From Symmachiella macrocystis (GTDB taxonomy: Bacteria; Planctomycetota; Planctomycetia; Planctomycetales; Planctomycetaceae), in assembly GCF_007860075.1 (NCBI RefSeq), contig NZ_SJPP01000004.1, positions 62,001 through 126,000 of the forward strand: DNA of 64,000 nt, read 5' to 3'. The position numbers and the translations under genes are program-made. Positions 47,994-62,960 of the stretch are shown here, piece after piece. The notes below the pieces were generated by a model. It did not search any database. It saw only the letters and a list, made by a program, of their open reading frames with translations, and had not been told where the DNA came from. Position 1 is the first letter of the stretch. The number at the start of each line of letters is the position of its first letter.

Positions 47994-48848
47994 TCAATTA
48001 GTACCTTGGTGGAAAAAACTAGCTGCAACGCGGAAGGGAGAGAGGAGGTTGTCGCGGAGTGAGACGCGCTCAGTATTGGTCTGAAATAAAATAATCGACA
48101 CGTCGTCACCGGTATTGATTGCGTCTTTCCGGGGGACGATTTTCTCGATTAAGGAAGTGATAAAACGGTTTGGATCGGAGAGTTCTAGACCAGAAACAAG
48201 CTGCAGCAGGCCGTCGGCACCGAGAAGTTGTCCGTCGGGTTGTTCGATTTCGATGAGACCATCGGTGAATGCAAGCACCAAATCGCCGGTGTTTAATTTC
48301 GTGCGAACGTCTGAATAACTTTCGTCTGCTTCGATCCCCAGGGGGAAATTGCGAGCTTGCGTCGGTTCAGGCTCTTCAGCTTTCAATTGTCGCCAATTCC
48401 GGGTTTTGTGTTGATAAATCAGCGGATGTGGATGCCCGGCATTGCTGAGCGTCAACATTCGTGTCGGAGCGAAAAAGGTTCCAATCAGCGCAGTGGCAAA
48501 GTGCCCTTGTGTCGAGGCGACGACAAACTCTTGATTGATCGAGTTCACTAATGAGGACTGATCAATCCTATTGATGTTGCGGCGCATCAGTTGTCGAAGA
48601 ATATCTGCACGGTCCGCCACGGCATCACCATGACCGCTGACATCGGCCAACAGGATGCGTGTGATTCGCCCCGAAGCACAAGAGGAGACATAGCACACGT
48701 CCCCCCCACTCTGGGAATTTGCATGCGGGCTGCTATACACACAGACGTCCAAACCGGTCGTTGTCAAAGCGCGGTCCACTGCGCGGTTGCCTCCCCACAC
48801 CTCCATGCACTGCATTCGTTCAGGAGTTTGTGTTCGCATGTGTGACAT
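47994..48848 (-). CDS. SpoIIE/PP2C-type serine phosphatase
   Basis: A 284-residue protein consisting mainly of a PP2C-like SpoIIE/RsbU domain. Metal-binding Asp residues lie in QSGGDVCYV, LLADVSGHGDAVAD and VLAFTDGLIEIEQPDG, with a late TGDDVSIILFQ. There is no REC, PAS or HAMP input domain. Such phosphatases usually dephosphorylate anti-sigma-factor antagonists in partner-switching stress signalling; no such partner is visible here. The start (48848, or ATG 48839 with better-spaced GAGG) lies inside the end of the upstream gene, so translation is coupled to it. Confidence 0.85.
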   Translation of the reverse strand: MSHMRTQTPERMQCMEVWGGNRAVDRALTTTGLDVCVYSSPHANSQSGGDVCYVSSCASGRITRILLADVSGHGDAVADRADILRQLMRRNINRIDQSSLVNSINQEFVVASTQGHFATALIGTFFAPTRMLTLSNAGHPHPLIYQHKTRNWRQLKAEEPEPTQARNFPLGIEADESYSDVRTKLNTGDLVLAFTDGLIEIEQPDGQLLGADGLLQLVSGLELSDPNRFITSLIEKIVPRKDAINTGDDVSIILFQTNTERVSLRDNLLSPFRVAASFFHQGTN

Positions 48849-50343
48849 CCTCGCCTAAATTTGCTGTCGTTGGTTTATCCGGGAATGCGTTTTGAGGATT
48901 TGTACGCTCAGCCGCCCTCACGATTTCACGTAACATCCCGGCGAAGACCAAACGGTGTAGCGGATAAATTCCATACCAGTACATTAAACCCAACAAACCG
49001 ACCGGATCGAAGACAGCGGTTTGGCGAATCGTCGTCGAACTCGCAGACTCGGTTACTTCAAACTCCAGCCAGGCACGTCCAGGAAGTTTCATTTCTGCAT
49101 CGAGCCGCAACCTGCGATTCGGCTCATAGGCTTGTACACGCCAGAAATCGAGGGTTTCGCCAACTGTCAAAGTGTTCGGATTCCGACGACCGCGACGCAT
49201 TCCGACTCCACCAACCAACAGGTCCATATAGCCGCGAATTTTCCACAACCAAGTTGCAAAGTACCAACCTGTATTCCCACCGATTCTTCGAATGGGTTCA
49301 AACGCTCGTGCTGCGGAAACGTGTGTTGTTGCTGTCCTGGAATCCACGAGCCGATTGCCAAAACGAACTCCCCCCCAACTCTTTGGGGAACCAGCCGAGG
49401 AAATGGCATCCGACCACCGTGTCTCCGCAAATTCCTGATCTTCCTTGGCCAGTGCACGGGCGATAGCCGCATGAGAATTACGCGGTCGGATGTCGGGAAA
49501 GGCTTGCAGCGCTTCGTCGTTGTGGACCACTGTCGGATTCCGCAAACTTTCCACCAATTTTCGACCGATGCGTGCAAAGACCGGCGTGACTAAGCCCAAC
49601 CACAGACTCGAAAGACGGGGACTTAAAAACGGGACTGGAATAGTCCAACGTTTCAGACCGCGTTGGTTTGCATACGCCAACATGACGCCGCCATACGACA
49701 CTTGATCCGGCCCGCCAATCTCAAAGACGCAACTTTCCTGGTCGCTATACTCAATAGCCGCCATCAAATAGGCCAAGACATCCTCGATGGCGATCGGCTG
49801 CGCCGGCGTCGAAACCCATTGCGGCCAGATCATAATGGGCAGCTTTTGAACCAGGCTGCGAATCAATTCAAAAGACAAACTCCCCGACCCGATAATAATT
49901 GAAGCTCGAAACTCAATGACCTGCGCTCCAGATTGCCGTAGGATATCGCCCACTTCCTGACGACTGCGCAAGTGCGGCGACAAACCATTCTGTGATTCGC
50001 CAAGCCCGCCAAGATAAATGATCCGTTGCACGTTGGCCTGCCGGGCTGCTTCAGCAAAGTTGAGCGCTGCCGTGCGATCTTCTTTTTCAAAGTCTTGTCC
50101 TGTCCCCAATGAATGGACCATATAAAAGGCCGTGTGGATACCGTCTAGCGCTCGACGCAGCGACTCTAGCTCAAAGAGGTCCCCTTGCACGATTTCTGTC
50201 GAGGATTGGACGCGCGACTCCAAATATTGCGGCTGTCGAGCGACGCAGCGCAGCGGATATCCATGTTTTTCCAGCAAAGGAATGAGGCGTCCCCCGACAT
50301 AACCCGTGCCACCAGTGAGAAGAATGGATCGCTGATTTGGCAT
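48820..50343 (-). CDS. NAD(P)-binding epimerase-like protein with DUF2867
   Basis: 507 residues. The N-terminal half is an extended SDR (TGGTGYVGGRLIPLLEKHG, FYMVHSLG, then VQRIIYLGGLG), close to the atypical SDRs used in complex-I assembly or lipid metabolism. The C-terminal ~150 residues match DUF2867 (FWRVQAYEPNRRLRLDAEMKLPGRAWLEFEV; GIYPLHRLVFAGMLREI). The last 29 bases overlap the phosphatase gene. Together with the DUF1295 protein upstream it is a usual companion of Cfa/DUF1365 clusters, so a role in the same membrane-lipid modification is plausible. Confidence 0.82.
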   Translation of the reverse strand: MPNQRSILLTGGTGYVGGRLIPLLEKHGYPLRCVARQPQYLESRVQSSTEIVQGDLFELESLRRALDGIHTAFYMVHSLGTGQDFEKEDRTAALNFAEAARQANVQRIIYLGGLGESQNGLSPHLRSRQEVGDILRQSGAQVIEFRASIIIGSGSLSFELIRSLVQKLPIMIWPQWVSTPAQPIAIEDVLAYLMAAIEYSDQESCVFEIGGPDQVSYGGVMLAYANQRGLKRWTIPVPFLSPRLSSLWLGLVTPVFARIGRKLVESLRNPTVVHNDEALQAFPDIRPRNSHAAIARALAKEDQEFAETRWSDAISSAGSPKSWGGVRFGNRLVDSRTATTHVSAARAFEPIRRIGGNTGWYFATWLWKIRGYMDLLVGGVGMRRGRRNPNTLTVGETLDFWRVQAYEPNRRLRLDAEMKLPGRAWLEFEVTESASSTTIRQTAVFDPVGLLGLMYWYGIYPLHRLVFAGMLREIVRAAERTNPQNAFPDKPTTANLGEDVTHANTNS

Positions 50344-50454
50344 GTGAGGACCTGTCGTGATTTGACCAATAACCGATGTTCGATTGCGATCGGTGCCCTA
50401 AACACAAGTCGGGGTGATACCCGCGATTCCAGTCAGTGTTAAAGAGAAGGTCGA

Positions 50455-51246
50455 TTAAAGTTTCTGATTGGATTCGCGCTTTGGTGGGAATGGGAAAAAC
50501 GCATGTGTGCGTTGGATATAGGATTCGTATCCCTTTTTGCGAGTTTTCAGTGAGCTTTCGAGTAATGTGACGCCGGACACGCGTACGAGAAGAATGGACA
50601 TTACAATGGGCCCGATCACCGACCACCATGCTGTACCGCGACCGAATGAGACACAGTATAGCCCCCACCAGACAAGAAAGTCTCCGAAATAATTTGGGTG
50701 TCGCGTGTATCGCCACAAGCCACGGTCCATCACCTGACCTGCATTCGCCGGATCTGCTTTAAACTGGGCCAGTTGCCAGTCGCCAACAGATTCGAATAGA
50801 AATCCAATACACCAAAGAATCATGCCCAAAATAGCCAGCAGGCCAATGCGATCTTGATTGTTCTCCATTTGCCCCGTTTGGAGCGGCAGGGAAACGATCC
50901 ACATGATCACCCCTTGCAGGCCAAAAACGGTAAACAGACTACGTAGTGGAAAACCGCTGCCGTGCTTTTCGCGCATCATACGATACCGATAATCCTCTGG
51001 TTTTCCGAGGTTTCTCCAGGTGAGGTAGCCACTTAAGCGGAGTCCCCAAAGACTCGCCAGCCCCACAATCACCCATTTCTGAGGCGTGGGCATTCCTGTA
51101 ATCAGAAAACTCACCCAAGCGATCACAACAAACCCTGCCCCCCAGGCCAAGTCGACGATGCTCACGTCGTTCAATCGCAGACTGACCAACCAAACGCAGA
51201 GCATCATGCCAGTCACGACTGCTAGATTTACGAGAAAGGGGGACAT
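50455..51246 (-). CDS. DUF1295 membrane protein (steroid 5-alpha-reductase-like)
   Basis: 263 residues with about six hydrophobic segments. The motifs are IVDLAWGAGFVV, LSGYLTWRNLGKPEDYRYRMMRE and GLWRYTRHPNYFGDFLVWWG, the last being the cofactor-side signature of the steroid-5-alpha-reductase/ICMT-like superfamily. The start at 51246 gives the normal family length; the frame remains open to 51423. It is 111 bases upstream of the DUF2867 gene on the same strand. It might reduce a double bond in a membrane lipid, which is a family inference. Confidence 0.88.
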   Translation of the reverse strand: MSPFLVNLAVVTGMMLCVWLVSLRLNDVSIVDLAWGAGFVVIAWVSFLITGMPTPQKWVIVGLASLWGLRLSGYLTWRNLGKPEDYRYRMMREKHGSGFPLRSLFTVFGLQGVIMWIVSLPLQTGQMENNQDRIGLLAILGMILWCIGFLFESVGDWQLAQFKADPANAGQVMDRGLWRYTRHPNYFGDFLVWWGLYCVSFGRGTAWWSVIGPIVMSILLVRVSGVTLLESSLKTRKKGYESYIQRTHAFFPFPPKRESNQKL

Positions 51247-51886
51247 TTCAAACACGGATAGCCAATTTGAAGCGGGAATTAAAAACCATATGACACTTAG
51301 ATTGTAGGCGCATCGAAACCATTGACAACCAGATTTGACCTGCCAAGAGAATCTGCAGTGCTCGGTGAGGTTCCTCGAAATATGGGGGGGACACCCCCAA
51401 AGTGGCGGGCAATATGGAACCACCGAAGAGATACCAGCGTATTCCGCTCTCAGCCACGCAACTGGGCCGATGACTTCGTTAATCCCAGCATTGTGCGAGC
51501 AAAGACAGCAGCGATTGGGGTTCTCGTGCCAGCTGAGTCGAACCCCTGCAAAATCAGTGGTCGTGAAGTGCGCAACTCTTTTTCATGCGATACGAGAGCC
51601 CCGCCCGTGGGCAGGTTCTACGCAGATAGCAACAAGAGTGTATAGCAGGGGCCATTGCCTCTCACGCCGTGTTTCAGCAAATGGTGGCTTGCGATTACGA
51701 CCGATCAAAGCAGAAACGGAACTCATTATCTGTAAACATCTCGACGGACGGCGTATGCGCCACAAAGAGCATGCCTACAAAACGAGGTTGCAGGGAGAAT
51801 TGCTTTTCAATAGCGACAGTCTGAGGTAACTCGGGAAGTATGCCGAGTTGCGTGAAATGCCATCATCAGCGGTCAGTGTGAATGAC
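51247..51886. other. Intergenic, nothing recognised
   Basis: A gap of 640 bases between two minus-strand genes. A plus-strand frame at 51335-51829 has no recognisable motif, no clear start signal and irregular composition. No RNA gene or terminator stands out. Confidence 0.35.
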
Positions 51887-52816
51887 TTAGACCACAGAGC
51901 GAAGCTCAACCGGCAGATCAAATCGAGCGCGCTCTTGCCGGATGTCCCGTGATTCCACAGTGGCTTGAAATTGTGAGCATAGGTAATTTAAGCATTCATC
52001 GACAAGTTCTTCCGGAGCACTTGCTCCTGCCGTTAAAATGACAGTGTCGTCGGGGCGAAGCCATGTTGGATCGATTTCGCTGACATGATCGAAAAGATAT
52101 GACGGCTTGCCGGCTTCCCGCGCGACTTCGGCCAAGCGATTGCTGTTGGAGCTGTTTTGGCTACCGATCACCAAAACAACATCAGCCTCCGAAAGCAATT
52201 CTTTCACAGCCGTTTGCCGGTTCTGTGTGGCGAAGCAAATGTCCTGCTTGGCAGGCCCGATGATCCTGGGATAACGCTGTTCGAGTCGGTCGACGATATT
52301 TTTGACATGGTCGAGACTCAAAGTTGTTTGCGTCAGATAAGCAACTTTGTCTGGGTCGGGGACCTTTACGGTGTCGACATCTTCAATCGTTTCGATCAGT
52401 TGGATTTGATCGGGTGCCTCCCCCACGGTTCCCACCGCTTCGTCATGTCCGGCATGTCCGATGAGCAGAACAGAGTAGCCAGCCGCGACGAACTTGACGG
52501 CTTCTGTATGCACTTTGGAAACAAGCGGGCAAGTGGCGTCGATGGTCTTCAGCCGTCTGGCTCTTGCCTGCTTCCGGATGTCGGGAGAGACTCCATGGGC
52601 GCTAAATAACACATGGCTTGACTCGGGGATTTCATCGAGACCATCCACGAAAATAACGCCGCGTTGGCAAAACCCTTCGACGACATGTTTGTTGTGGACG
52701 ATTTCATGAAACACATAAATCGGTGCGCCGTATAACTCCAATGCTTTTTCGAGACTTTGAATCGCCATGACGACCCCAGCACAAAAACCGTGTGGGTTCG
52801 GCAAGAGGATCTTCAT
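51887..52816 (-). CDS. ispH: 4-hydroxy-3-methylbut-2-enyl diphosphate reductase (IspH/LytB)
   Basis: The last enzyme of the methylerythritol-phosphate pathway: reduces HMBPP to IPP and DMAPP with a [4Fe-4S] cluster. The 309 residues have the three cluster cysteines in PHGFCAGVV, DATCPLVSKVH and QDICFATQNRQ. The conserved His residues are in HEIVHNKHVV and LIGHAGHDEA, with the SxN pair in GSQNSSNSNRL. It is the final gene of the co-directional run ribB, terpene-synthase-like, hybrid kinase, HD-GYP, ispH, 114 bases after the HD-GYP gene. An own promoter in that gap is possible. Confidence 0.96.
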   Translation of the reverse strand: MKILLPNPHGFCAGVVMAIQSLEKALELYGAPIYVFHEIVHNKHVVEGFCQRGVIFVDGLDEIPESSHVLFSAHGVSPDIRKQARARRLKTIDATCPLVSKVHTEAVKFVAAGYSVLLIGHAGHDEAVGTVGEAPDQIQLIETIEDVDTVKVPDPDKVAYLTQTTLSLDHVKNIVDRLEQRYPRIIGPAKQDICFATQNRQTAVKELLSEADVVLVIGSQNSSNSNRLAEVAREAGKPSYLFDHVSEIDPTWLRPDDTVILTAGASAPEELVDECLNYLCSQFQATVESRDIRQERARFDLPVELRSVV

Positions 52817-52930
52817 AATTGTCCTTCCAGAGGGGATAAAGCTATTGAAATAACCTGGTCTGCGGGATCACATCGTTTCGGTCCAAAAAGCAGCGACGGA
52901 TATGTCAGCGAATGGAAGTCCGTTTTAGCG

Positions 52931-53980
52931 TTATACGGCGAGTTGTACTTGCAAGCTGGATGGATGGTCAGGGATGTCATTCGAAGATTCGAACTGACTT
53001 TTGATTTCGATGAACTGCTTCTCCACTGCTAAAAAGGCATCCACGATGTCAGGGTCAAAATGTGCCCCGCGTCCTTTGACGATCACAGAGCGTGCCACAT
53101 CATGTGATGCAGCCTGTTTGTAAACTCTCTCGGTTGTGATCGCGTCATAGACGTCCGCCAACGCCAGGATTCGCCCACTTAACGGGATTTCATCGGCAAC
53201 GAGACCATTGGGATATCCGCTCCCGTCGAATCGTTCATGATGTGACAGAGTCACTTCCAGCGCCATCTTCAAAAAGTCCAGGCCGGGGTGATTCGCTGCA
53301 ACCGCCGCCAACGTCTCAGCTCCGATTTCCACATGTGTCTTCATGATGGCAAATTCGTCTTCGGTCAGCTTGCCTGGCTTTAGCAAGATGTTATCGGGAA
53401 TGCCGACTTTTCCAATATCGTGTAAGGGACTGGTTTGATAGAGAGTTTGTATGTAGTCCCCATCCACGATGTCTCGATAAGCGGGCAGTGTAGAAAGTTG
53501 CTGCGCTAAAACGCGGCAGTAGTCTCGAATGCGATCCAAATGACTTCCGGTATCGGTGTCACGCGATTCCGCTAACTTAGCGAGCGCAAAAATCATGCCG
53601 TTGCGGCTTTCCAACGCACGAATCCGCTCACCAACACGAAGCCGCACACACAATTCCGCAGGCTCAAACGGCTTGGCGATGAAATCATCTGCACCGGCAT
53701 CGAGTCCCTCCACGACATCCTTCGTCGAGGTTCGCCCGGTCACAAGAATGAAGTAGATATAGCTAGCAAAACAACGTTTGCGTACCTCGCGGCAAAACTG
53801 GACTCCGTCCATGATGTCCATTTCCCAATCTGAGACGACGGTCTGAAAGCGGCCGGACCGCAATTTTTCTAGAGCATCGTATCCGTTGTTTGCAGATTCG
53901 ACCTCGTACCCTTCGTCTTCAAGAGTATTTTGAAGCAATTCCAGGGCAATATCGTCGTCATCAACAATCAAGATTGGCAT
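52931..53980 (-). CDS. Response regulator with HD-GYP phosphodiesterase domain
   Basis: 349 residues. The receiver domain (1-125) has DDD at the acidic pocket, phosphoacceptor Asp in VVSDWEMDIMDG, Thr in LVTGRTS and Lys in FIAKPF. A short helix connects to the HD-GYP domain with its complete signature: the HD of PLHDIGKVGIPD, LKPGKLTEDEFAIMKTH, and HHERFDGSGYPNGL. HD-GYP domains with these residues hydrolyse cyclic di-GMP. The gene starts 24 bases after the hybrid kinase gene, so that kinase is its likely phosphodonor and the pair links a membrane signal to c-di-GMP breakdown. Confidence 0.93.
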   Translation of the reverse strand: MPILIVDDDDIALELLQNTLEDEGYEVESANNGYDALEKLRSGRFQTVVSDWEMDIMDGVQFCREVRKRCFASYIYFILVTGRTSTKDVVEGLDAGADDFIAKPFEPAELCVRLRVGERIRALESRNGMIFALAKLAESRDTDTGSHLDRIRDYCRVLAQQLSTLPAYRDIVDGDYIQTLYQTSPLHDIGKVGIPDNILLKPGKLTEDEFAIMKTHVEIGAETLAAVAANHPGLDFLKMALEVTLSHHERFDGSGYPNGLVADEIPLSGRILALADVYDAITTERVYKQAASHDVARSVIVKGRGAHFDPDIVDAFLAVEKQFIEIKSQFESSNDIPDHPSSLQVQLAV

Positions 53981-54004
53981 TTGATTTCTTCCCGTTGGTT
54001 TGAG

Positions 54005-57000
54005 TCAATTCACTGACGTCATCGAAATTTCCACCAATTCAAGTTGGTGGTGTTTCGACAAGGTTGGTTCCATATTCAAGAAGAGTTCGCATTCCGTTTT
54101 CAGCTGTTCCAAGAACTGGTACAGATCTGCGACATCGTCGGTCCGGGCCACTTCTTCCAAATCTGTCGCGGCTTGCCGTATCCTTTCGGCGGAGAGATTG
54201 GAGGAGGAGCCTTTGAGTGCGTGAGCCAGCGTTGCGGTTCGTTTGAGATCGCAGCTTTCAACACTGTCTTCGATCTTCTGTAGATCACCGTCCAAGCGGT
54301 CATGGAATTTACCGAGCAATCGTTCGGCGAGTTCCAATTTTCCGTTACATCGCCGTAATAGCCCATCGACATCCAATACATCGGCGGAATCTTCGTTGTT
54401 TGATTTTGTCTCAAGGTCCGATTCATCACAGCTGTCATCGGATGGACAGCTCGCATCGTGTCCATCGTCAACCTGGGGCGAAGTCTGATCGCCTTGGGAC
54501 AAATGGGCTTCAATCGTTTCGATCAAGCGCACTGGGTCTAGTGGCTTGCTGAGATAACCATTCATCCCCGCGGCTAAACACCGTTCGCGTTCACCGGTCA
54601 ATGCACTCGCCGTCAATGCGACGATCGGCAGCGTTTTGGATTGTTGGTTTGAGATCCCGCTTTCAAATTCGCGAATGGCCCGAGTCGCCTCCAGCCCGTC
54701 CATCTCTGGCATTTGGCAATCCATCAAGACCAGGTCATATCGTTCATTGCGAACGGTTTCGAGCGCTAGGCGGCCGTTGGCGACGATGTGACACGTGTAG
54801 CCGGCATTGGAGAGAATCTCGGCGACTACCTCCTGGTTAATGTAATTATCCTCAGCCACCAGAATGCGTGCATTGCTGTGTCCCGTTTTCTTCAGTTTCC
54901 TTTGTTGTGAATTGCCTCGCAACTCGGTACGCATTCGTGCGGCTGACATCGCATCGTCGCTCTGAGAGGAGTCGACGCAGGTGGGGCCAATCACATTGAT
55001 GAGTTCCGAAGGTAACACTGGTATCGCGAGAGAGCCGAAAAACCCCTGCTTGCGCAACGTGGGCTCGTCGATTTGATCGGTCAGTGCAACAAGTTGAATC
55101 AGACGTGGTTCGCGTATCGTGGTTTCGGTATGCGCAAGTGTGATCCAGGCGACCATTTCGGAGTCTACTAAAGCTTTCTCAATCAATACCGTGTGATACG
55201 GCTGCTCCTCTGCGGTGGCTTGGTACAACCGATCCATTGCCTCATTGGCGGCAGACTCAGCATCGACAAGACATCCCCAGGCTTTTAACTGGTTGTGTAG
55301 CATGCTCCTTGCCACGCTGTCTTGTTTGATAAGGAGCACTCGTTGCCCTTTGAGATCCGCTGCGACTTGTGAAAAACTGAGATTTTGCTCCGGTAGCATT
55401 TCGAAGGGGATGCTGAATGCAAAAGTCGATCCGGTGCCGACTTGACTTTCAAAGCCAATGTGTCCCTTCATCAACGCGCACAACTCTTTGCATATCGATA
55501 ATCCCAGGCCGGTCCCGCCGTATTGGCGGGTCGTTGAGGCATCGACCTGTGAGAACGACTTGAACAATCGATCGAACCGGGTGGGCGGTATTCCGATTCC
55601 AGTGTCGGCGACGCTAAAGCGTAGCGTTGTGGTCGCACCGTCAACGCGATCCAGCTCGACACATAACACGATGCTCCCCTGTTCGGTGAATTTGATCGCG
55701 TTGTTCATTAGGTTGTTGAGAATCTGCCGCACACGTCCTGGATCGCCTTTCACCGTAAGTGGAATGGATGGATCCACGTAACAGGCTAGAGCAATGCCTT
55801 TTTCGCAACAGCGATGTGCGGCGATTTCCAAGACCGGTTCTACGACATCCAACAGCTTGAAGTCGATATGTTCAATTTCAAGTTTACCCGCTTCAATTTT
55901 TGAATAGTCCAGAACTTCATTCAGCAGTTCCAGCAGTGTAGTTCCCGAGATTCCGGCCACTTTCGCATATTTGCGCTGTTGGGTATTCAAAGTCGTGTTG
56001 AGCAACAACTCGGTCATTCCGATCACCCCATTGAGGGGCGTCCGCAATTCATGCGAAATATTGGCGATGAAGTCGCTTTTTGAGCGATTCGCCGATTCGG
56101 CATCGGCGCGGGCGATTTCCAACTCGCTGGTCCGGGTTTGTACCTTTTGCTCAAGATTCGTATTCAAGTCTCGGATCGTGAAATCATCTTGCTGAAGCTT
56201 TCCAACCATCAAATTGAACTGGCGTCCCAGGACGTCAATCTCATCATTGCCTGTCATCAAGACGCGTTTCGACAGAGTGCCATCTTGGACTTGCTTCATC
56301 GCGGTCATAAGCATGTCGATGCGAGACGCCACTGAATTCGCAAGCATCCGTGAGAGAAACAGCCCAACCGCGAACGCTGCCATAGTGATGAAAAACGTGT
56401 GCCTTCTCAGAATTGTGACTGCGGTAACTGCCTGGTCGGGATTTTCTGAAATCTCCCACGCTCTTTGATTCGCCAGTGCACCGATCATTAAAGCGGTCAC
56501 CAAGATGGTCAGGCCGAACGAAATGTTCATCCGCCATTGAATTTTGCCGACCGGGATCGCCGGATAATCGATTGTCACGCCCTGCCGCATCAGCAAGTTG
56601 ATCACCGGAACCATCCAGCGTTCGCTTGCAAAAAAGGTTCCCATCAGAACAGATGCAATGCCTACGAAACCGGCGAACGAAATCTGAATTGCCACCTTCA
56701 AGGGAGCCTGATTGAGAAACACCAGCAGGGCGCAAAACAACACCACGCAGATGAAGGTCACGTAGATCGCTTCAGTTCGATGATGGACCCTGGGGAATAC
56801 GACCGCTTCTCGGCCAGCTTGCATTCCCTCCTCAGCGTTAATTTCTCCGCCGCGACCTAGCTGCGCCAATACTTTACGCAACGTGCGTGTCTCGTGCAGC
56901 GCCATGAATACTGTGAGCGCAGTTGCTGTCGGGATTAAGATTGATGAATAGGAGATGAGCAAATGGAAGATGCGCGCATCCAGATTCATCGTCAGGTTGA

Positions 57001-57106
57001 TGTAATAGATCGTTAGCCCACCACCGATGAGGCAAATCGGGCGGGTTAAAATCATCATCGCCAGGATGTAGTGAGCGCCGGTCTTTTTAAGTAGCCACTC
57101 AGTCAT
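54005..57106 (-). CDS. Membrane hybrid histidine kinase with pseudo-receiver, receiver and HPt
   Basis: 1033 residues. About six membrane helices lie in the first 270 residues, followed by HAMP, a coiled coil, HisKA (SHELRTPLNGVIGMTELLL) and an ATPase domain (NLMNNAIKFT, DTGIGIPPTRF, YGGTGLGLSI). Then comes a first receiver-like domain that lacks the phosphoacceptor Asp (TVLIEKALVD where LxDxxMP is expected). A canonical receiver follows (RILVAEDNYINQEV; LVLMDCQMPEMDG), and an HPt domain (LAHALKGSSSNL) closes the protein. This is a full phosphorelay in one chain, whose HPt could pass phosphate to the HD-GYP regulator 24 bases downstream. It sits 46 bases after the terpene-synthase-like gene. 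Confidence 0.93.
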   Translation of the reverse strand: MTEWLLKKTGAHYILAMMILTRPICLIGGGLTIYYINLTMNLDARIFHLLISYSSILIPTATALTVFMALHETRTLRKVLAQLGRGGEINAEEGMQAGREAVVFPRVHHRTEAIYVTFICVVLFCALLVFLNQAPLKVAIQISFAGFVGIASVLMGTFFASERWMVPVINLLMRQGVTIDYPAIPVGKIQWRMNISFGLTILVTALMIGALANQRAWEISENPDQAVTAVTILRRHTFFITMAAFAVGLFLSRMLANSVASRIDMLMTAMKQVQDGTLSKRVLMTGNDEIDVLGRQFNLMVGKLQQDDFTIRDLNTNLEQKVQTRTSELEIARADAESANRSKSDFIANISHELRTPLNGVIGMTELLLNTTLNTQQRKYAKVAGISGTTLLELLNEVLDYSKIEAGKLEIEHIDFKLLDVVEPVLEIAAHRCCEKGIALACYVDPSIPLTVKGDPGRVRQILNNLMNNAIKFTEQGSIVLCVELDRVDGATTTLRFSVADTGIGIPPTRFDRLFKSFSQVDASTTRQYGGTGLGLSICKELCALMKGHIGFESQVGTGSTFAFSIPFEMLPEQNLSFSQVAADLKGQRVLLIKQDSVARSMLHNQLKAWGCLVDAESAANEAMDRLYQATAEEQPYHTVLIEKALVDSEMVAWITLAHTETTIREPRLIQLVALTDQIDEPTLRKQGFFGSLAIPVLPSELINVIGPTCVDSSQSDDAMSAARMRTELRGNSQQRKLKKTGHSNARILVAEDNYINQEVVAEILSNAGYTCHIVANGRLALETVRNERYDLVLMDCQMPEMDGLEATRAIREFESGISNQQSKTLPIVALTASALTGERERCLAAGMNGYLSKPLDPVRLIETIEAHLSQGDQTSPQVDDGHDASCPSDDSCDESDLETKSNNEDSADVLDVDGLLRRCNGKLELAERLLGKFHDRLDGDLQKIEDSVESCDLKRTATLAHALKGSSSNLSAERIRQAATDLEEVARTDDVADLYQFLEQLKTECELFLNMEPTLSKHHQLELVEISMTSVN

Positions 57107-57152
57107 TCTGATAATCTCTTGCCACCGGAACCATCCGGTCGACTTTCAATGC

Positions 57153-58736
57153 TCAGATCGCTCCCCGGCAGGCTAAGTGCATCCGAAAGAATCGCTCTTG
57201 AGCTTCGACAAATCCGTGTAAATCAACCGAATGAATCTCAGCGAGCTTAGTCTTGAGGCATTCTCTATGTTCATGCCAACGGTTCAGAAAATATTGTTCG
57301 TGACCTCCACCGAGGATGGCCGCTTCAATTGCGGGGGCATCGCTGGCATTCAGCTGGTCAACGTTCAGGTCTCCCTTGATCACTGCGCGAGCAAAAACAC
57401 CACTTGTGAAGTCGGTTTGCTCAATCTCGCGTTCCCAGGTACTTAGCAAGTTTCCGACGCGTCCCATACATTGGGCATGCCAAATCGCTTCCCGGAACCG
57501 TCCGAGTTCGTGCACGTCAAATTCTGGCGTGCACATCAGGTCCAGCGTTGAGAAGCTCATCATGTGCATGGCGTGAGGCAAGTATAGTTCGTGTTCGGTG
57601 ACGTTGAGCAGACTCAGGTTCTCATTGAGCAGGCAGGAGTACCTCATCGTGTTGAAATATTGCATCAAATCGAATTCCAGTAATCGTTTGTACACATCGT
57701 GTAGCGGATATTCTGATATTCGGCGTTCGTATATTTGGGATAAGTACTGAGTCACCTCAGCAGTTCTACGGTCCGTTGCTGAAAAACTTTGCATCGCTGG
57801 AGTGGGTTGCCCCTCGATGATTTTCATCAAGACTTCCAGCAGCGGCTGATTGCCTTGCTCATCAGCGACGTCGTCCATGAGCACGCAAAGCATGATTGAC
57901 AAAACCTTTGTGTCACATACGTGACGTCGCCATTGCGGCGCGACATTGGAGATAGTCGTCAACTCCGCGCCGTGCACACACCATTGCCACAAAAATCGCG
58001 TCCGATCACCGACCTGAGAATAGGCGTCAAAAAACGCTTCGACCTCGTCGCTCAGTCTCGCCGCCTTGACCAAATCCAGTTCCCGTTGCAACAAGTCTTC
58101 CGATAATTCGAACTGTTCGCCTATTTCCGGCCGCTTCCAAAATTCTTTTGATATTGCATCACGACCAGATCCGGCTGAATCAAACCGATTGTGTGCGTCA
58201 GGCCTAACCCGTTGATGGGGGAGATCTTTTTGCTTGAAGCTACGCACTGTTTGGACAATTCTGTCGACACGGCTCTGATTCGAGCGATGCGTTGGGGAAG
58301 TGTCAGCAGGAGCAGGGTCCAGTCGCAGGCTACTTACTGTGCGGGTGGATTTTGATGTCTTGGATAGGTCCGGCAGCGAAGCCCCTGTTGCAGTTCCCTC
58401 GTAATCCGGGTCAAGGATCAGAAATGCGCTGACCCCGTCCGATGTCTCGCCAGACCGATGAGCCTCGGAATTCGCAACATACCTTCCGTGAACTACTTTT
58501 GCCGGGATTCCTTCTTGCTCCAGCCGGAGAGCGGCTTGTGCCGCAATCTCATCGTTCGCACCATTGGTGACAATGGTGATTACCTCTCCGTCAGGGAGCG
58601 CGCTATTTGCCGGAGTACGTCGGACTTTGTTTGTAATGCCCGGTGGTGTGATCTGTTGGATTCCCTTGTTCATGTCGGTATTCCAGTTCACGTGCATTCT
58701 TGAAGGGATTGTGATGTCTTCCAATTGCATTGGCAT
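57153..58736 (-). CDS. Class I terpene-synthase-like protein with novel N-terminal domain
   Basis: 527 residues. The C-terminal ~330 are all-helical and carry an aspartate motif DDVADE (288-293) and NLLSTWERE (429-437), fitting (N/D)-x-x-x-(S/T)-x-x-x-E. The two are 141 residues apart, the spacing of bacterial sesquiterpene synthases. The usual Arg about 46 residues before the second motif and the C-terminal Arg-Tyr pair are not seen, so it is a divergent member. Residues 49-110 (EVITIVTNGANDEIAAQAAL..., AKVVHGRYV) resemble the C-terminal domain of transketolase or DXP synthase. A low-complexity linker joins the two. The start is uncertain (58736, 58697 or 58673); the first overlaps ribB by 49 bases. 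Confidence 0.6.
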   Translation of the reverse strand: MPMQLEDITIPSRMHVNWNTDMNKGIQQITPPGITNKVRRTPANSALPDGEVITIVTNGANDEIAAQAALRLEQEGIPAKVVHGRYVANSEAHRSGETSDGVSAFLILDPDYEGTATGASLPDLSKTSKSTRTVSSLRLDPAPADTSPTHRSNQSRVDRIVQTVRSFKQKDLPHQRVRPDAHNRFDSAGSGRDAISKEFWKRPEIGEQFELSEDLLQRELDLVKAARLSDEVEAFFDAYSQVGDRTRFLWQWCVHGAELTTISNVAPQWRRHVCDTKVLSIMLCVLMDDVADEQGNQPLLEVLMKIIEGQPTPAMQSFSATDRRTAEVTQYLSQIYERRISEYPLHDVYKRLLEFDLMQYFNTMRYSCLLNENLSLLNVTEHELYLPHAMHMMSFSTLDLMCTPEFDVHELGRFREAIWHAQCMGRVGNLLSTWEREIEQTDFTSGVFARAVIKGDLNVDQLNASDAPAIEAAILGGGHEQYFLNRWHEHRECLKTKLAEIHSVDLHGFVEAQERFFRMHLACRGAI

Positions 58737-59356
58737 GACGATTTTCGCTCACGAAATTGTACCAAGTCATCTATTGTGATCATATGAAGGTCAAATTGAT
58801 TTGCGATTTTAGTCAGTTCCGGACGACGCGCCATCCCAATGCCATCCCGGCTGCAGACTTCGCAGATCACTCCCGCACCGGACAGTCCCGCCAATCGACA
58901 AAGGTCGACAGCCGCTTCCGTGTGCCCGGTGCGTGACAAAACTCCGCCAGCTTCGGCCAACAGTGGAAAGACGTGCCCAGGACGAGTGAAGTCTTCCGGT
59001 CGGCTTTTGGTGTCGATCATCGCACGAATTGTCAACGACCGTTCGTGAGGACTGATCCCGCTACGACAGCTACGATGGTCAACGGGAATTGCAAAGCGAG
59101 GCTGGTCCTTGTCCCTGTTCGACGAGATCATCGGCTCCAACGCCAACTGGGTCGCGAGTTCGGGTAATAGCGGCATACAAAGCTGTCCCCGACCTTCGCT
59201 GATCATGAAATGAACCGCGTTTGGGGTGATTGCTTCAGCTGCAATGAAAAAATCACCTTCGTCTTCGCGCTCCTCTGAATCGACGATGATCAGCACTTTT
59301 CCGTTAGCTGTCGCTTCAATCGCAGTTTCGATTGTTGAAAAATGGTTTCTTTTCAT
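58688..59356 (-). CDS. ribB: 3,4-dihydroxy-2-butanone 4-phosphate synthase
   Basis: Converts ribulose 5-phosphate to 3,4-dihydroxy-2-butanone 4-phosphate and formate for riboflavin synthesis. 222 residues with the acidic metal/substrate loop VDSEEREDEGDFF, SGISPHERSLTIRAM, RPGHVFPLLAEAGGVLSRTGHTEAAVDLC and a late IDDLVQFRE. It is a stand-alone RibB with no GTP-cyclohydrolase II domain. I chose the ATG at 59356; the frame continues upstream but without family similarity. It is the first gene of the run leading to ispH and overlaps the terpene-synthase-like gene. No other riboflavin gene is near, so its role here may be special. Confidence 0.95.
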   Translation of the reverse strand: MKRNHFSTIETAIEATANGKVLIIVDSEEREDEGDFFIAAEAITPNAVHFMISEGRGQLCMPLLPELATQLALEPMISSNRDKDQPRFAIPVDHRSCRSGISPHERSLTIRAMIDTKSRPEDFTRPGHVFPLLAEAGGVLSRTGHTEAAVDLCRLAGLSGAGVICEVCSRDGIGMARRPELTKIANQFDLHMITIDDLVQFRERKSSCQCNWKTSQSLQECT

Positions 59357-59993: not shown

Positions 59994-60926
59994 TCATAGG
60001 CTATCGACAGAAAAGACCGCAGGCAGAGCTGTGACTGGAAATCCGATTACGTGATCGAAATAACAACAGCGATTCTTCCCAGCAGATTTGGCAGCGATGA
60101 GACATTCGTCAGCTCGTTTGACGAGGTCTAAATTTTCAAGTTCCTCAGTCTGTTCGGCAATCCCAATGGTCAGTGTAATATGCCGAATTTGATTTTCGAT
60201 GACGAACTTGTGTTTTGCGAACGACTCCAATACCTGTATGCCGCTCATTTGTGCAACGCAGATATCAGAGGCGGGGAGGACAATCGAAAACTCATCACCT
60301 CCGTACCGAGCCAGCTGATGTGGTGACTTTAATGAAGCCCCAAGCACCTCCGCCACCTGCCGAAGAACCCGATCACCTTCGACGTGCCCAAAGTCATCAT
60401 TAATCATCTTGAAATCATCAATGTCGATTAACATGAGACAGTAGGCTTCATTATTCATCTGGTAGCGTTTGAGGCAGCGGTCCAACCAATCGTTCATTGC
60501 TCGTCGATTGAATAAGCCCGTGAGAACGTCTGTCCGCGCTTCGGCTTGGGACAATAACAATTGTTTTTTTTGCTCGGCGAGTATCGATCTCACACGCCCA
60601 AGTTCCGCATCCATCTCGGCATAGTCGTTTCGACATATTGCTTCTGTTCGAATTTCGTCCAGCCATAGAGATTCGTCGTCAGCATTACTCGAAAGAGCCG
60701 GACCAATGGAAATCGAAGTTGCGGCCCACTCACTGGCAGCGAGTGCGTCTTGGAGTTCGTGAAACGGTGCGGTGTGTTCAGGTTTTTCAATGGGCTGTCG
60801 AGTCGCCAAATTGTCAGGACTCGATGTGTTGTCACGAGTCGAATGTCTTCGCTTGCACCACTGATACCCCAAACAAGCCCCAATCAATGCACAAGCCAGA
60901 CAGTTTAGATAATCAAAAATAGTCAA
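59994..60926 (-). CDS. Diguanylate cyclase (GGDEF)
   Basis: 310 residues. A single N-terminal hydrophobic segment (about 5-22) anchors the protein. It is followed by a disordered stretch, a coiled coil (EMDAELGRVRSILAEQKKQLLLSQAEA) and a GGDEF domain with the intact active site RYGGDEFSIVLP and the substrate-side DVLTGLFNRRAMNDWL and LIDIDDFKMINDDFGHVEGD. Activity making cyclic di-GMP is expected. An allosteric RxxD inhibition site is not evident before the motif. It is co-directional with the ribB-ispH run, 637 bases upstream, and could oppose the HD-GYP protein encoded there. Confidence 0.93.
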   Translation of the reverse strand: MTIFDYLNCLACALIGACLGYQWCKRRHSTRDNTSSPDNLATRQPIEKPEHTAPFHELQDALAASEWAATSISIGPALSSNADDESLWLDEIRTEAICRNDYAEMDAELGRVRSILAEQKKQLLLSQAEARTDVLTGLFNRRAMNDWLDRCLKRYQMNNEAYCLMLIDIDDFKMINDDFGHVEGDRVLRQVAEVLGASLKSPHQLARYGGDEFSIVLPASDICVAQMSGIQVLESFAKHKFVIENQIRHITLTIGIAEQTEELENLDLVKRADECLIAAKSAGKNRCCYFDHVIGFPVTALPAVFSVDSL

Positions 60927-61682: not shown

Positions 61683-62960
61683 ATGAAGAAAATTGTGGCT
61701 TATCTGCTTCTCGCTGTGGCAGTTCAACTGCTGGTCCCTGGTCGCGCCCAATCTAATGGTGTGGTCCGAGACAGCATTGGTGCAACAAGTTCAGGGCGCG
61801 GTGGGACAAATCTCGCACATCATGACAACGGGGCCGTCATTCTGAACAATCCCGCGGCAATGGTGAACGTTAAGGGTTCGGGACTCTCCGAGTTTGGCGT
61901 TGATACCGTGATCACGGATCTTGATTATTCCGACCCGGAAAATAACTCAAACGCGGTCAATACAAATGTCCTTCCGGAATTATCGGTGATCCGTAAAAGC
62001 CTGGATGGCCGATGGGCCGTGGGATTTGGAGCCTTCGCGCCAGCCGGATATGGTGCGACATGGAAGCTGACGAATCCGGTTTTAGGAACAAATACTTACA
62101 AATCGTTTGGCGCGCTGGGTAAAATCATGCCCAGTCTGGCCTACCAGGTGAATGACGATCTCTCCATTGGTGCCTCTTTAGGGGTGGCGGTCAGCCATCT
62201 CGAATTCGAAAGCCCATTCTTCTTACAAACCGGCCCGCTGGCCGGAGCACCGACCCAATTCGATTTGCAGGCAACCGGTGCCAGCCTCGCGTGGAACGTC
62301 GGCCTGCAGTATAAACTCGATGAGTGGACGACTTTTGGAGCCGGCTTTATTGGCGAGACCCGCATGGATTACGATGGCAATGTTCGCGCTGCTGTGATCG
62401 GATTAGGACCGCAGCCGGTCGAAAGCCGCTTCGATGCCGAGGTCGAACTGGCATGGCCACGTTCCGCCGGCGTGGGAGTTGCTCACTGGCTCAATTGTCG
62501 GCAACGGATTTCCACAGATCTGATGTGGTACGACTGGTCGCACGCCTATGACCAACTCGACATCAAGTTGCGAAACTCAACGAATCCGATCTTTCCGGCC
62601 GTCTTAGGACCTGAAATCACTGAGTCTTTTCCGCTCCGTTGGCGCGACAGTATGTCTGTTCGACTCGGTTATGAATTGTTCAATCCCAACGATTCCGTCT
62701 TCCGAGCCGGATACGTTTACAATACACGCAATTTGCCCAGCGCAACGCTCACCCCGCTGATCCCGGCGACCTTGGAACACTCATTTACGATTGGTTACGG
62801 GAAGTCATGGAGTGATTGGCAATGGAACTTCGCCTATCAGTTTTCCTTCGGACCGGAAAGGTCGGTCGGCACCAGTGCCTTGGCAGGCGGAGATTTCAGC
62901 AACAGCGAGAGCAATTCACAAGCTCACTGGATTTCGCTCAGCCTCATCCGAAGGTTCTAG
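61683..62960 (+). CDS. FadL/OmpP1-family outer-membrane transporter
   Basis: The 425 residues begin with a signal peptide (1-24) followed by the FadL hatch-like N-terminus (GVVRDSIGATSSGRGGTNLAHHDNGAVILNNPAAM, the NPA motif being typical). The rest is a 14-strand-type beta barrel with alternating aromatic strands, ending in RRF with the C-terminal Phe expected for outer-membrane insertion. Family members let long-chain fatty acids or aromatic hydrocarbons pass the outer membrane. The substrate here is not known. The gene stands alone, 18 bases before a direct repeat. Confidence 0.88.
   Translation: MKKIVAYLLLAVAVQLLVPGRAQSNGVVRDSIGATSSGRGGTNLAHHDNGAVILNNPAAMVNVKGSGLSEFGVDTVITDLDYSDPENNSNAVNTNVLPELSVIRKSLDGRWAVGFGAFAPAGYGATWKLTNPVLGTNTYKSFGALGKIMPSLAYQVNDDLSIGASLGVAVSHLEFESPFFLQTGPLAGAPTQFDLQATGASLAWNVGLQYKLDEWTTFGAGFIGETRMDYDGNVRAAVIGLGPQPVESRFDAEVELAWPRSAGVGVAHWLNCRQRISTDLMWYDWSHAYDQLDIKLRNSTNPIFPAVLGPEITESFPLRWRDSMSVRLGYELFNPNDSVFRAGYVYNTRNLPSATLTPLIPATLEHSFTIGYGKSWSDWQWNFAYQFSFGPERSVGTSALAGGDFSNSESNSQAHWISLSLIRRF

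Follow-up and report, generated by a model that had tools for sequence, protein, structure and literature searches.

The CqsA/CqsS and LqsA/LqsS systems encode a six-helix receptor kinase together with the synthase of an autoinducer, as described in an excerpt of PMC3376566. For planctomycetes, terpene clusters found with antiSMASH comprise, in three organisms, genes for terpene cyclases and for polyprenyl and phytoene synthases, with carotenoids suggested as products (PMC4982196, in excerpt), and in the excerpted text of PMC5352709 terpene synthases are mentioned in the reference list only. We describe here a gene run of Symmachiella macrocystis in which a gene for a class I terpene synthase (TS) is followed by that of a hybrid histidine kinase with a six-helix membrane sensor. 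The window, by which we mean the whole stretch of DNA analysed, is a 64 kb section of the 7.57 Mb genome (6 contigs; labelled G000), and the run comprises ribB, the TS gene, the kinase gene, a gene for a REC-HD-GYP response regulator and ispH (Table 1). All five open reading frames (ORFs) lie on the minus strand where the first-pass annotation had placed them, with an overlap of 49 bases followed by gaps of 46, 24 and 114 bases as computed from the ORF coordinates, and its identification of IspH, RibB, REC-HD-GYP and the hybrid kinase is confirmed by Pfam and NCBIfam. The module is real and conserved and, as far as our searches of the open-licence PMC literature show, undescribed; neither a pairing of a TS with a histidine kinase in a planctomycete nor a planctomycete link between DXS and TS was found described in that literature, which is a limited base for novelty. 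It very probably operates as one functional unit, and we rate the chances as even that this recurring planctomycete module is dedicated to both terpenoid synthesis and terpenoid sensing. Synthesis is well supported, and sensing of the product is something we infer from the likeness to CqsA/CqsS.

The TS is not recognizable from its sequence by the usual routes. The protein has no Pfam match above cut-off and no NCBIfam match, Terpene_syn_C_2 (PF19086) does not match it at all, and even the distant relative L130 reaches that family only at E 0.0057 (16.9 bits, below the cut-off of 23.7). Searching PDB sequences with the single protein gave weak rows only (catalases against the N-terminal part, and one design), and a 22-row TS profile gave zero rows, so that structure was needed. 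The AlphaFold (AF2) model of the domain has a pLDDT of 92.1 and a pTM of 0.90. Foldseek returns 22 matches to it at E ≤ 0.001, mostly titled isoprenoid, prenyl-diphosphate or terpene synthases, with some titles being bare names (PcIDS1, Cop4, Sat1646). The best structural match in VIA is 7zrn (Z 21.4, root-mean-square deviation (rmsd) 3.1, 266 aligned residues, 11% identity), and the nine best VIA rows are 10-epi-cubebol, Copu9, epi-isozizaene, muurolol and selinadiene synthases (Z 20.9-21.4, rmsd 3.0-3.2, 266-270 residues, 10-13% identity). Two motifs are invariant in all 22 core loci, the set on which our counts are based: DDxAD (D288 D289 x A291 D292; D79 D80 x A82 D83 in domain numbering) and NxxxTWxRE (N429 xxx T433 xx R436 E437; N220, T224, R227 and E228 in domain numbering). 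The TS of L038 is 5'-incomplete at its start yet spans both. The first agrees with the aspartate-rich motif DDxxD/E and the second with the NSE/DTE motif, whose pattern is (N/D)xxx(S/T)xx(K/R)E. Comparison with the congener G001 gives a dN/dS of 0.089 for residues 206-527 and of 0.333 for residues 1-205. From the modelled fold and the motifs we assign a class I terpene synthase domain to the protein, in keeping with the terpene-synthase-like label of the first-pass annotation, and in all likelihood the enzyme makes a terpenoid.

In 20 of the 22 core loci the TS gene is followed downstream, on its own strand, by that of a kinase with the window-type sensor, and the adjacency that the first-pass annotation had noted in this one genome is thus conserved across genera. 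Other ORFs intervene between the two genes in L034 and L040 (L-labels denote the loci compared and G-labels the genomes; L009 is from G001, L127 from G246 and L130 from G513), two hybrid kinases stand in succession in L031, L032 and L038, and in L039, which is without the sensor kinase, the contig stops 349 bases past the TS. The sensor domain has no Pfam match; it shows six hydropathy peaks, and its AF2 model consists of six long helices (pLDDT 81.5). It is present, in one copy each, in 14 of 170 genomes of the family, namely all 13 with a TS and G087 (62% complete), whose contig stops 7 bases beyond the sensor match, and, in a sample of 392 genomes from across the phylum, in five, every one a TS carrier. 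The association in the family genomes has a Fisher p of 1.4e-18, uncorrected for shared descent or linkage. Taking the TS-kinase order and the sensor-TS co-occurrence together, the arrangement exceeds chance. Kinases of other build accompany the more distant synthases: in L127 a run on one strand encodes FadL, TS, a kinase (protein kinase-AAA-TPR-GAF-HisKA), a REC-like ORF and REC-HD-GYP, and in L130 a GAF/PAS hybrid kinase is downstream of the TS. The placement of a TS beside a kinase therefore reaches beyond this sensor, and a sensor search of the four TS genomes outside the family (G246, G286, G513 and G543; completeness 82-93%) gave no match.

Relatives of the TS occur in 13 of the 170 family genomes (11 of 58 genera) and in nine of the 392 phylum genomes, in searches that, like those for the sensor, score only the best first-look candidates (13-15 per genome for the family, 5-6 for the phylum) and in which misses are possible. 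Two peptide patterns between them picked out 81 stretches of the GTDB collection, and 16 named contigs were confirmed as TS relatives, all 16 titled as planctomycete metagenome-assembled genomes (Planctomycetota, Planctomycetales, Pirellulales, Planctomycetaceae or Phycisphaerae); the seven of these contigs that overlap the genome set were entered once in the core loci. The TS tree has nine open forks of 23 and very long branches for L129 and L130, and its deep order is not fixed. Several individual loci are worth recording. L030 and L032 come from one metagenomic bin (GZL_HY_2_bin.141) and are different TS-kinase-ispH clusters on separate contigs, reflecting either two copies or mixed binning. 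The distant planctomycete G286 (L129, L131 and L132) has four TS-domain matches, two of them adjacent (L129), and in L132 a S-adenosylmethionine methyltransferase domain follows the TS-domain match in the same frame. One similarity cluster of ORFs adjoins the TS in three loci (L030:6727-8034, L034:10879-12222 and L036:11074-12231), and its L034 member, which matches FAD-binding oxidoreductase families, is a possible tailoring enzyme.

DXS and IspH are the first and last enzymes of the methylerythritol phosphate (MEP) pathway, and both are linked to the TS. In L034 a full DXS (TIGR00204, 712.2 bits; cut-off 465.95) precedes the TS domain within one protein, and the L036 fusion has all three DXS Pfam domains. 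When 14 fusion-length proteins are aligned with normal DXS (leaving out the G014 'canonical DXS' row, which is in the wrong frame), the GDG and DGPTHHG segments, which we take to be catalytic, are intact in three (L034, L036 and L039). A long DXS half scoring 88-120 bits against TIGR00204 is present in L044, L033 and L030 and has lost these segments; along with L045 and L010, these loci are below the TIGR00204 cut-off. Transketolase_C is found in L044 at 7.6e-17, and remnants of it persist in L010 and in the distant L127. The window protein has no TIGR00204 match and no DXS Pfam domain above cut-off, and its Transketolase_C match (residues 49-87, E 0.0026, 18.1 bits, below the cut-off of 25.9) is credible because from residue 47 to residue 527 the protein aligns with L044 at 44.5%; the window TS thus appears to retain a weak remnant of DXS. 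A normal DXS is encoded elsewhere in the genome (687.1 bits). The remnant in L127, outside the family, suggests that the fusion is old, and the tree leaves the ancestral state unsettled.

At the other end of the pathway, ispH lies downstream of the TS on the same strand in seven of the 22 core loci, or seven of the 15 whose downstream sequence extends for 7.5 kb or more, and so recurs beside it, in support of the first-pass annotation. In G000, G001 and G105 the cluster ispH is an extra copy beside another IspH above cut-off (G000:C1:1630878-1631711 in the genome of the window). Within the genus, the non-cluster IspH of G000, G001 and G002 branch together, separately from those of the clusters, and the seven cluster copies are more grouped in the tree than in 500 shuffles (none as low), with a single origin recovered in just 48% of bootstrap trees. 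G002 and G003, which are without a cluster ispH, still carry a second, divergent IspH match, which counts against a simple dedicated-copy rule. The first-pass annotation had considered that second copies of ispH and ribB elsewhere, with a neighbourhood unique to one strain, would speak against a joint function; second copies do exist (for RibB as a domain in a longer frame), but the neighbourhood is not confined to one strain, and dedicated paralogues are therefore indicated. The OmpP1/FadL/TodX transporter likely belongs to the module as well. A homologue is near the TS in eight of the 22 core loci, counting the window, where it is on the opposite strand, and in L127, and there are few FadL genes per genome. 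The distance from the TS is about 26.5 kb in G001, about 15.5 kb in G170 and about 600 kb in G111, and the FadL match is on a different contig from the TS in G014, G013, G019, G091, G110, G123 and G171.

The first-pass annotation had left the presence of ribB unexplained. A stand-alone RibB occurs in three of 14 genomes (G000, G014 and G105) and is beside the TS in all three; the remaining 13 RibB domains belong to longer reading frames (361-476 aa), a size that fits RibBA (a 424-aa frame at G000:C2:592795 in the genome of the window), and G123 (66% complete) has no RibB match. In the tree the cluster RibBs of these three genomes group as a single clade (support 100/100), and they are marked by a shared short deletion as well as by the segment DHRxC(R/S)(S/T)GIS. 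Alignment shows RExEGD, GHTE and CE segments, presumably catalytic, in the window RibB. In the congener, L009:5385-6057 is a ribB pseudogene with in-frame stops directly upstream of an intact TS-kinase-HD-GYP-ispH run whose products are 90-97% identical to those of the window. Several lineages have had RibB in the module, yet it is dispensable: the gene is a separate and apparently dedicated paralogue, and it is also among the least constant parts of the run that the first-pass annotation outlined. None of the loci that carry a cluster RibB (the window, L044 and L035) has an intact-looking DXS half, and L035 has only 78 residues ahead of the TS domain. In E. coli the RibB variants G108S and D113G bypass DXS, according to an excerpt of PMC3424233, which likewise ties RibB to MEP entry without DXS, and the window RibB adjoins a TS with a lost DXS half but has G and E where those variants have S and G. 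As a synthase of 1-deoxy-D-xylulose 5-phosphate (DXP) the cluster RibB was rejected as a candidate, both bypass substitutions being absent and ribB being a pseudogene in G001 beside conserved genes. The bypass sites were placed through what we take to be the E. coli RibB sequence and a V. cholerae row. By analogy one might guess that the cluster RibB serves MEP entry after DXS loss, and the locus provides a naturally occurring setting in which to examine a possible role of RibB in isoprenoid synthesis.

The output side of the phosphorelay varies between lineages. The window HD-GYP regulator is 57% identical to L032:16765-18183 and has the complete motif set (HD, HDIGK and HHExxDGxGYP); it is predicted to be a phosphodiesterase and expected to lower cyclic di-GMP (c-di-GMP). 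REC-HD-GYP proteins are in the cluster in the window, L009, L032 and L127, a REC-HATPase protein takes the place of HD-GYP in L044, and in L010, L030, L033, L034, L037 and L043 the next ORFs are of about that length and, judged by similarity alone, kinase-like. Because HD-GYP is inconstant, c-di-GMP is one output among others; the c-di-GMP link proposed in the first-pass annotation would hold for the genus of the window and a few further loci, and not as a general role. The GGDEF protein upstream of ribB and the HD-GYP regulator are opposing c-di-GMP enzymes that flank the TS-kinase pair, and in L030 a GGDEF-like protein (33% identity) is near the TS on the other strand. Nine proteins from the cluster and its surroundings were scanned, and none has a DNA-binding domain.

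These components suggest a plausible path from precursor to response. The extra IspH, together with DXS where it is intact, would raise the supply of isopentenyl and dimethylallyl diphosphate, and the TS would cyclise a prenyl diphosphate, both on family knowledge. A lipophilic product would enter or cross membranes, with FadL giving outer-membrane passage, and could be detected by the hybrid kinase through its six-helix sensor. Phosphate would then pass through HisKA, REC and Hpt of the kinase to the REC domain of a response regulator; in the genus of the window this is an HD-GYP protein expected to lower c-di-GMP, and in some relatives it is another regulator. That the kinase senses the TS terpenoid or its membrane pool seems to us as probable as its contrary, and action of the terpenoid between cells is rather unlikely on present evidence. 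The boldest version, a first bacterial terpenoid autoinducer with its own TS, private receptor kinase, dedicated first and last MEP enzymes, FadL gate and, in this genus, c-di-GMP output, and with RibB turning ribulose 5-phosphate into DXP after decay of DXS, is speculative and we consider it unlikely. The proposal of the first-pass annotation that an isoprenoid product is tied to a membrane phosphorelay holds in part: the link between TS, kinase and ispH has come out stronger than it was first put, and the parts of RibB and c-di-GMP weaker.

Several observations weigh against a module that makes and senses its own terpenoid. The sensor model finds no convincing solved structure in Foldseek (best E 0.2), its best VIA match is a designed protein (Z 9.5), and the sensor sequence profile yields a single PDB row at E 0.21. 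L036 is without the sensor and has kinase pieces only. The strict co-occurrence of TS and sensor could also stem from inheritance of a linked pair. The distant synthases of L127 and L130 stand beside kinases with other sensors, and product sensing by a window-type domain is thus not needed everywhere. Finally, in the available stretches, several of them short, ispH is absent from 15 and FadL from 14 of the 22 loci.

Kinases are commonly encoded beside the pathway under their control, and regulated biosynthesis, in which the kinase senses membrane state, lipid or redox and the terpenoid serves protection, the membrane or defence, is a possible explanation that we hold to be somewhat improbable. 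It would accommodate the other sensor make-up of the kinases paired with related synthases in L127 and L130. It would also fit the finding that six-helix membrane domains can answer ordinary lipids, as when C18 mono-unsaturated fatty acids inhibit Rv1625c (PMC12505454, in excerpt). The six-helix domain of Rv1625c is not among the sensor rows shown, an absence that is compatible with kinship. However, a sensor of general cues would be expected in some genomes that lack a TS, and among the 157 family genomes with no TS match only G087, with its cut-off contig, has it; nor is there a DNA-binding domain in the nine scanned proteins. A feedback homeostat, in which the kinase would read the isoprenoid precursor or lipid pool and balance MEP flux while the TS vents surplus prenyl diphosphate, is improbable. 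The linkage of both the first and the last MEP enzyme to the TS is what such a device would lead one to expect, but the genome of the window has a full DXS and a second IspH elsewhere, the DXS motifs are kept in only three of the 14 fusion-length proteins, that of the window excluded, and the distribution (13 of 170) is patchy. The TS domain might instead be catalytically dead and act as a ligand-binding partner of the kinase, as the lack of a Pfam match above cut-off would allow. We take the pyrophosphate-sensor arginine to lie about 46 residues before the NSE asparagine, and at that spacing most rows have, in a sequence-level comparison, E or D inside EH(D/E)xY and no arginine, which could likewise suit a dead enzyme; the invariance of both metal-binding motifs in 22 of 22 loci and the low dN/dS of the domain make a dead enzyme very improbable. 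The inconstancy of ribB and its decay in G001, and the recurrence of the downstream SDR-DUF2867 and DUF1295 genes in G001 only among the loci compared, are what chance neighbours with separate functions would produce, but the TS-kinase order conserved across genera and the co-occurrence reduce that explanation to a negligible one.

Table 1. Genes of the TS-kinase run and its surroundings in the window
Feature	Coordinates	Strand	Evidence and remarks
ispH	51887-52816	minus	TIGR00216 312.7 bits, cut-off 187.85; second IspH copy of the genome
REC + HD-GYP response regulator	52931-53980	minus	Pfam REC + HD_5; HDIGK and HHERFDGSGYP in translation
Hybrid histidine kinase	54005-57106	minus	six-helix membrane sensor (residues ~1-255), HAMP, HisKA, HATPase, REC, Hpt (Pfam)
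Class I terpene synthase (predicted)	57153-58736	minus	domain at ~residues 210-527; residues 1-205, putative weak DXS transketolase-C remnant
Stand-alone RibB paralogue	58688-59356 (start 59356 or 59449)	minus	TIGR00506 212.1 bits, cut-off 177.45
GGDEF diguanylate cyclase	59994-60926	minus	PF00990 3.6e-38; upstream of ribB; module membership unproven
OmpP1/FadL/TodX outer-membrane transporter	61683-62960	plus	PF03349 1.3e-34; divergent, 2.9 kb from TS

Past ispH the same strand continues (47994-51423, minus) with genes for a SpoIIE-type phosphatase, an SDR protein with DUF2867 and a DUF1295 protein. G001 keeps this order, at 89-93% identity, and none of the remaining TS loci compared showed homologues. 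G002 has a match to the flanking SDR-DUF2867 protein of merely 28% over residues 6-81, too weak a basis for reading a syntenic empty site. Promoter-like sites (6, against a mean of 8.7) and terminator-like sites (9, against a mean of 10.7) are no commoner in the sequence than in shuffles, and these counts are therefore uninformative on operon structure.

The near one-to-one pairing of sensor and TS, the DXS fusion and the FadL porin were absent from the first-pass annotation. The locus adds a TS family that the Pfam and NCBIfam scans do not name, brings to light a natural DXS-terpene synthase fusion and supplies a candidate terpenoid receptor domain, and the near one-to-one synthase-sensor pair opens a direct test of bacterial terpenoid signalling. 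Among synthases of solved structure, the 10-epi-cubebol (7zrn), selinadiene (4okm) and epi-isozizaene (6ofv) enzymes are like the window TS in fold across the whole domain (Z ~21) and in their DDxxD-like and NSE-like motifs, whereas the window TS is set apart by 10-11% identity, the lack of a Pfam match above cut-off, fusion to DXS in some relatives and coupling to a kinase. The planctomycete terpene clusters of PMC4982196 have AraC and sigma-54 regulators at one cluster, and the excerpt names no DXS fusion or sensor kinase. Closest in plan are CqsA/CqsS and LqsA/LqsS(/LqsR), which are alike in that the synthase gene is clustered with that of a six-helix receptor kinase, the regulator is sometimes in the cluster, and the product is a lipophilic small molecule (excerpt of PMC3376566). 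The Cqs/Lqs synthase is pyridoxal phosphate-dependent and makes alpha-hydroxyketones according to the same excerpt, whereas that of the window is a predicted class I TS with MEP enzymes and a porin nearby. We therefore liken the window system, with its putative ligand, to Cqs/Lqs in how it may work and not as a member of that group.

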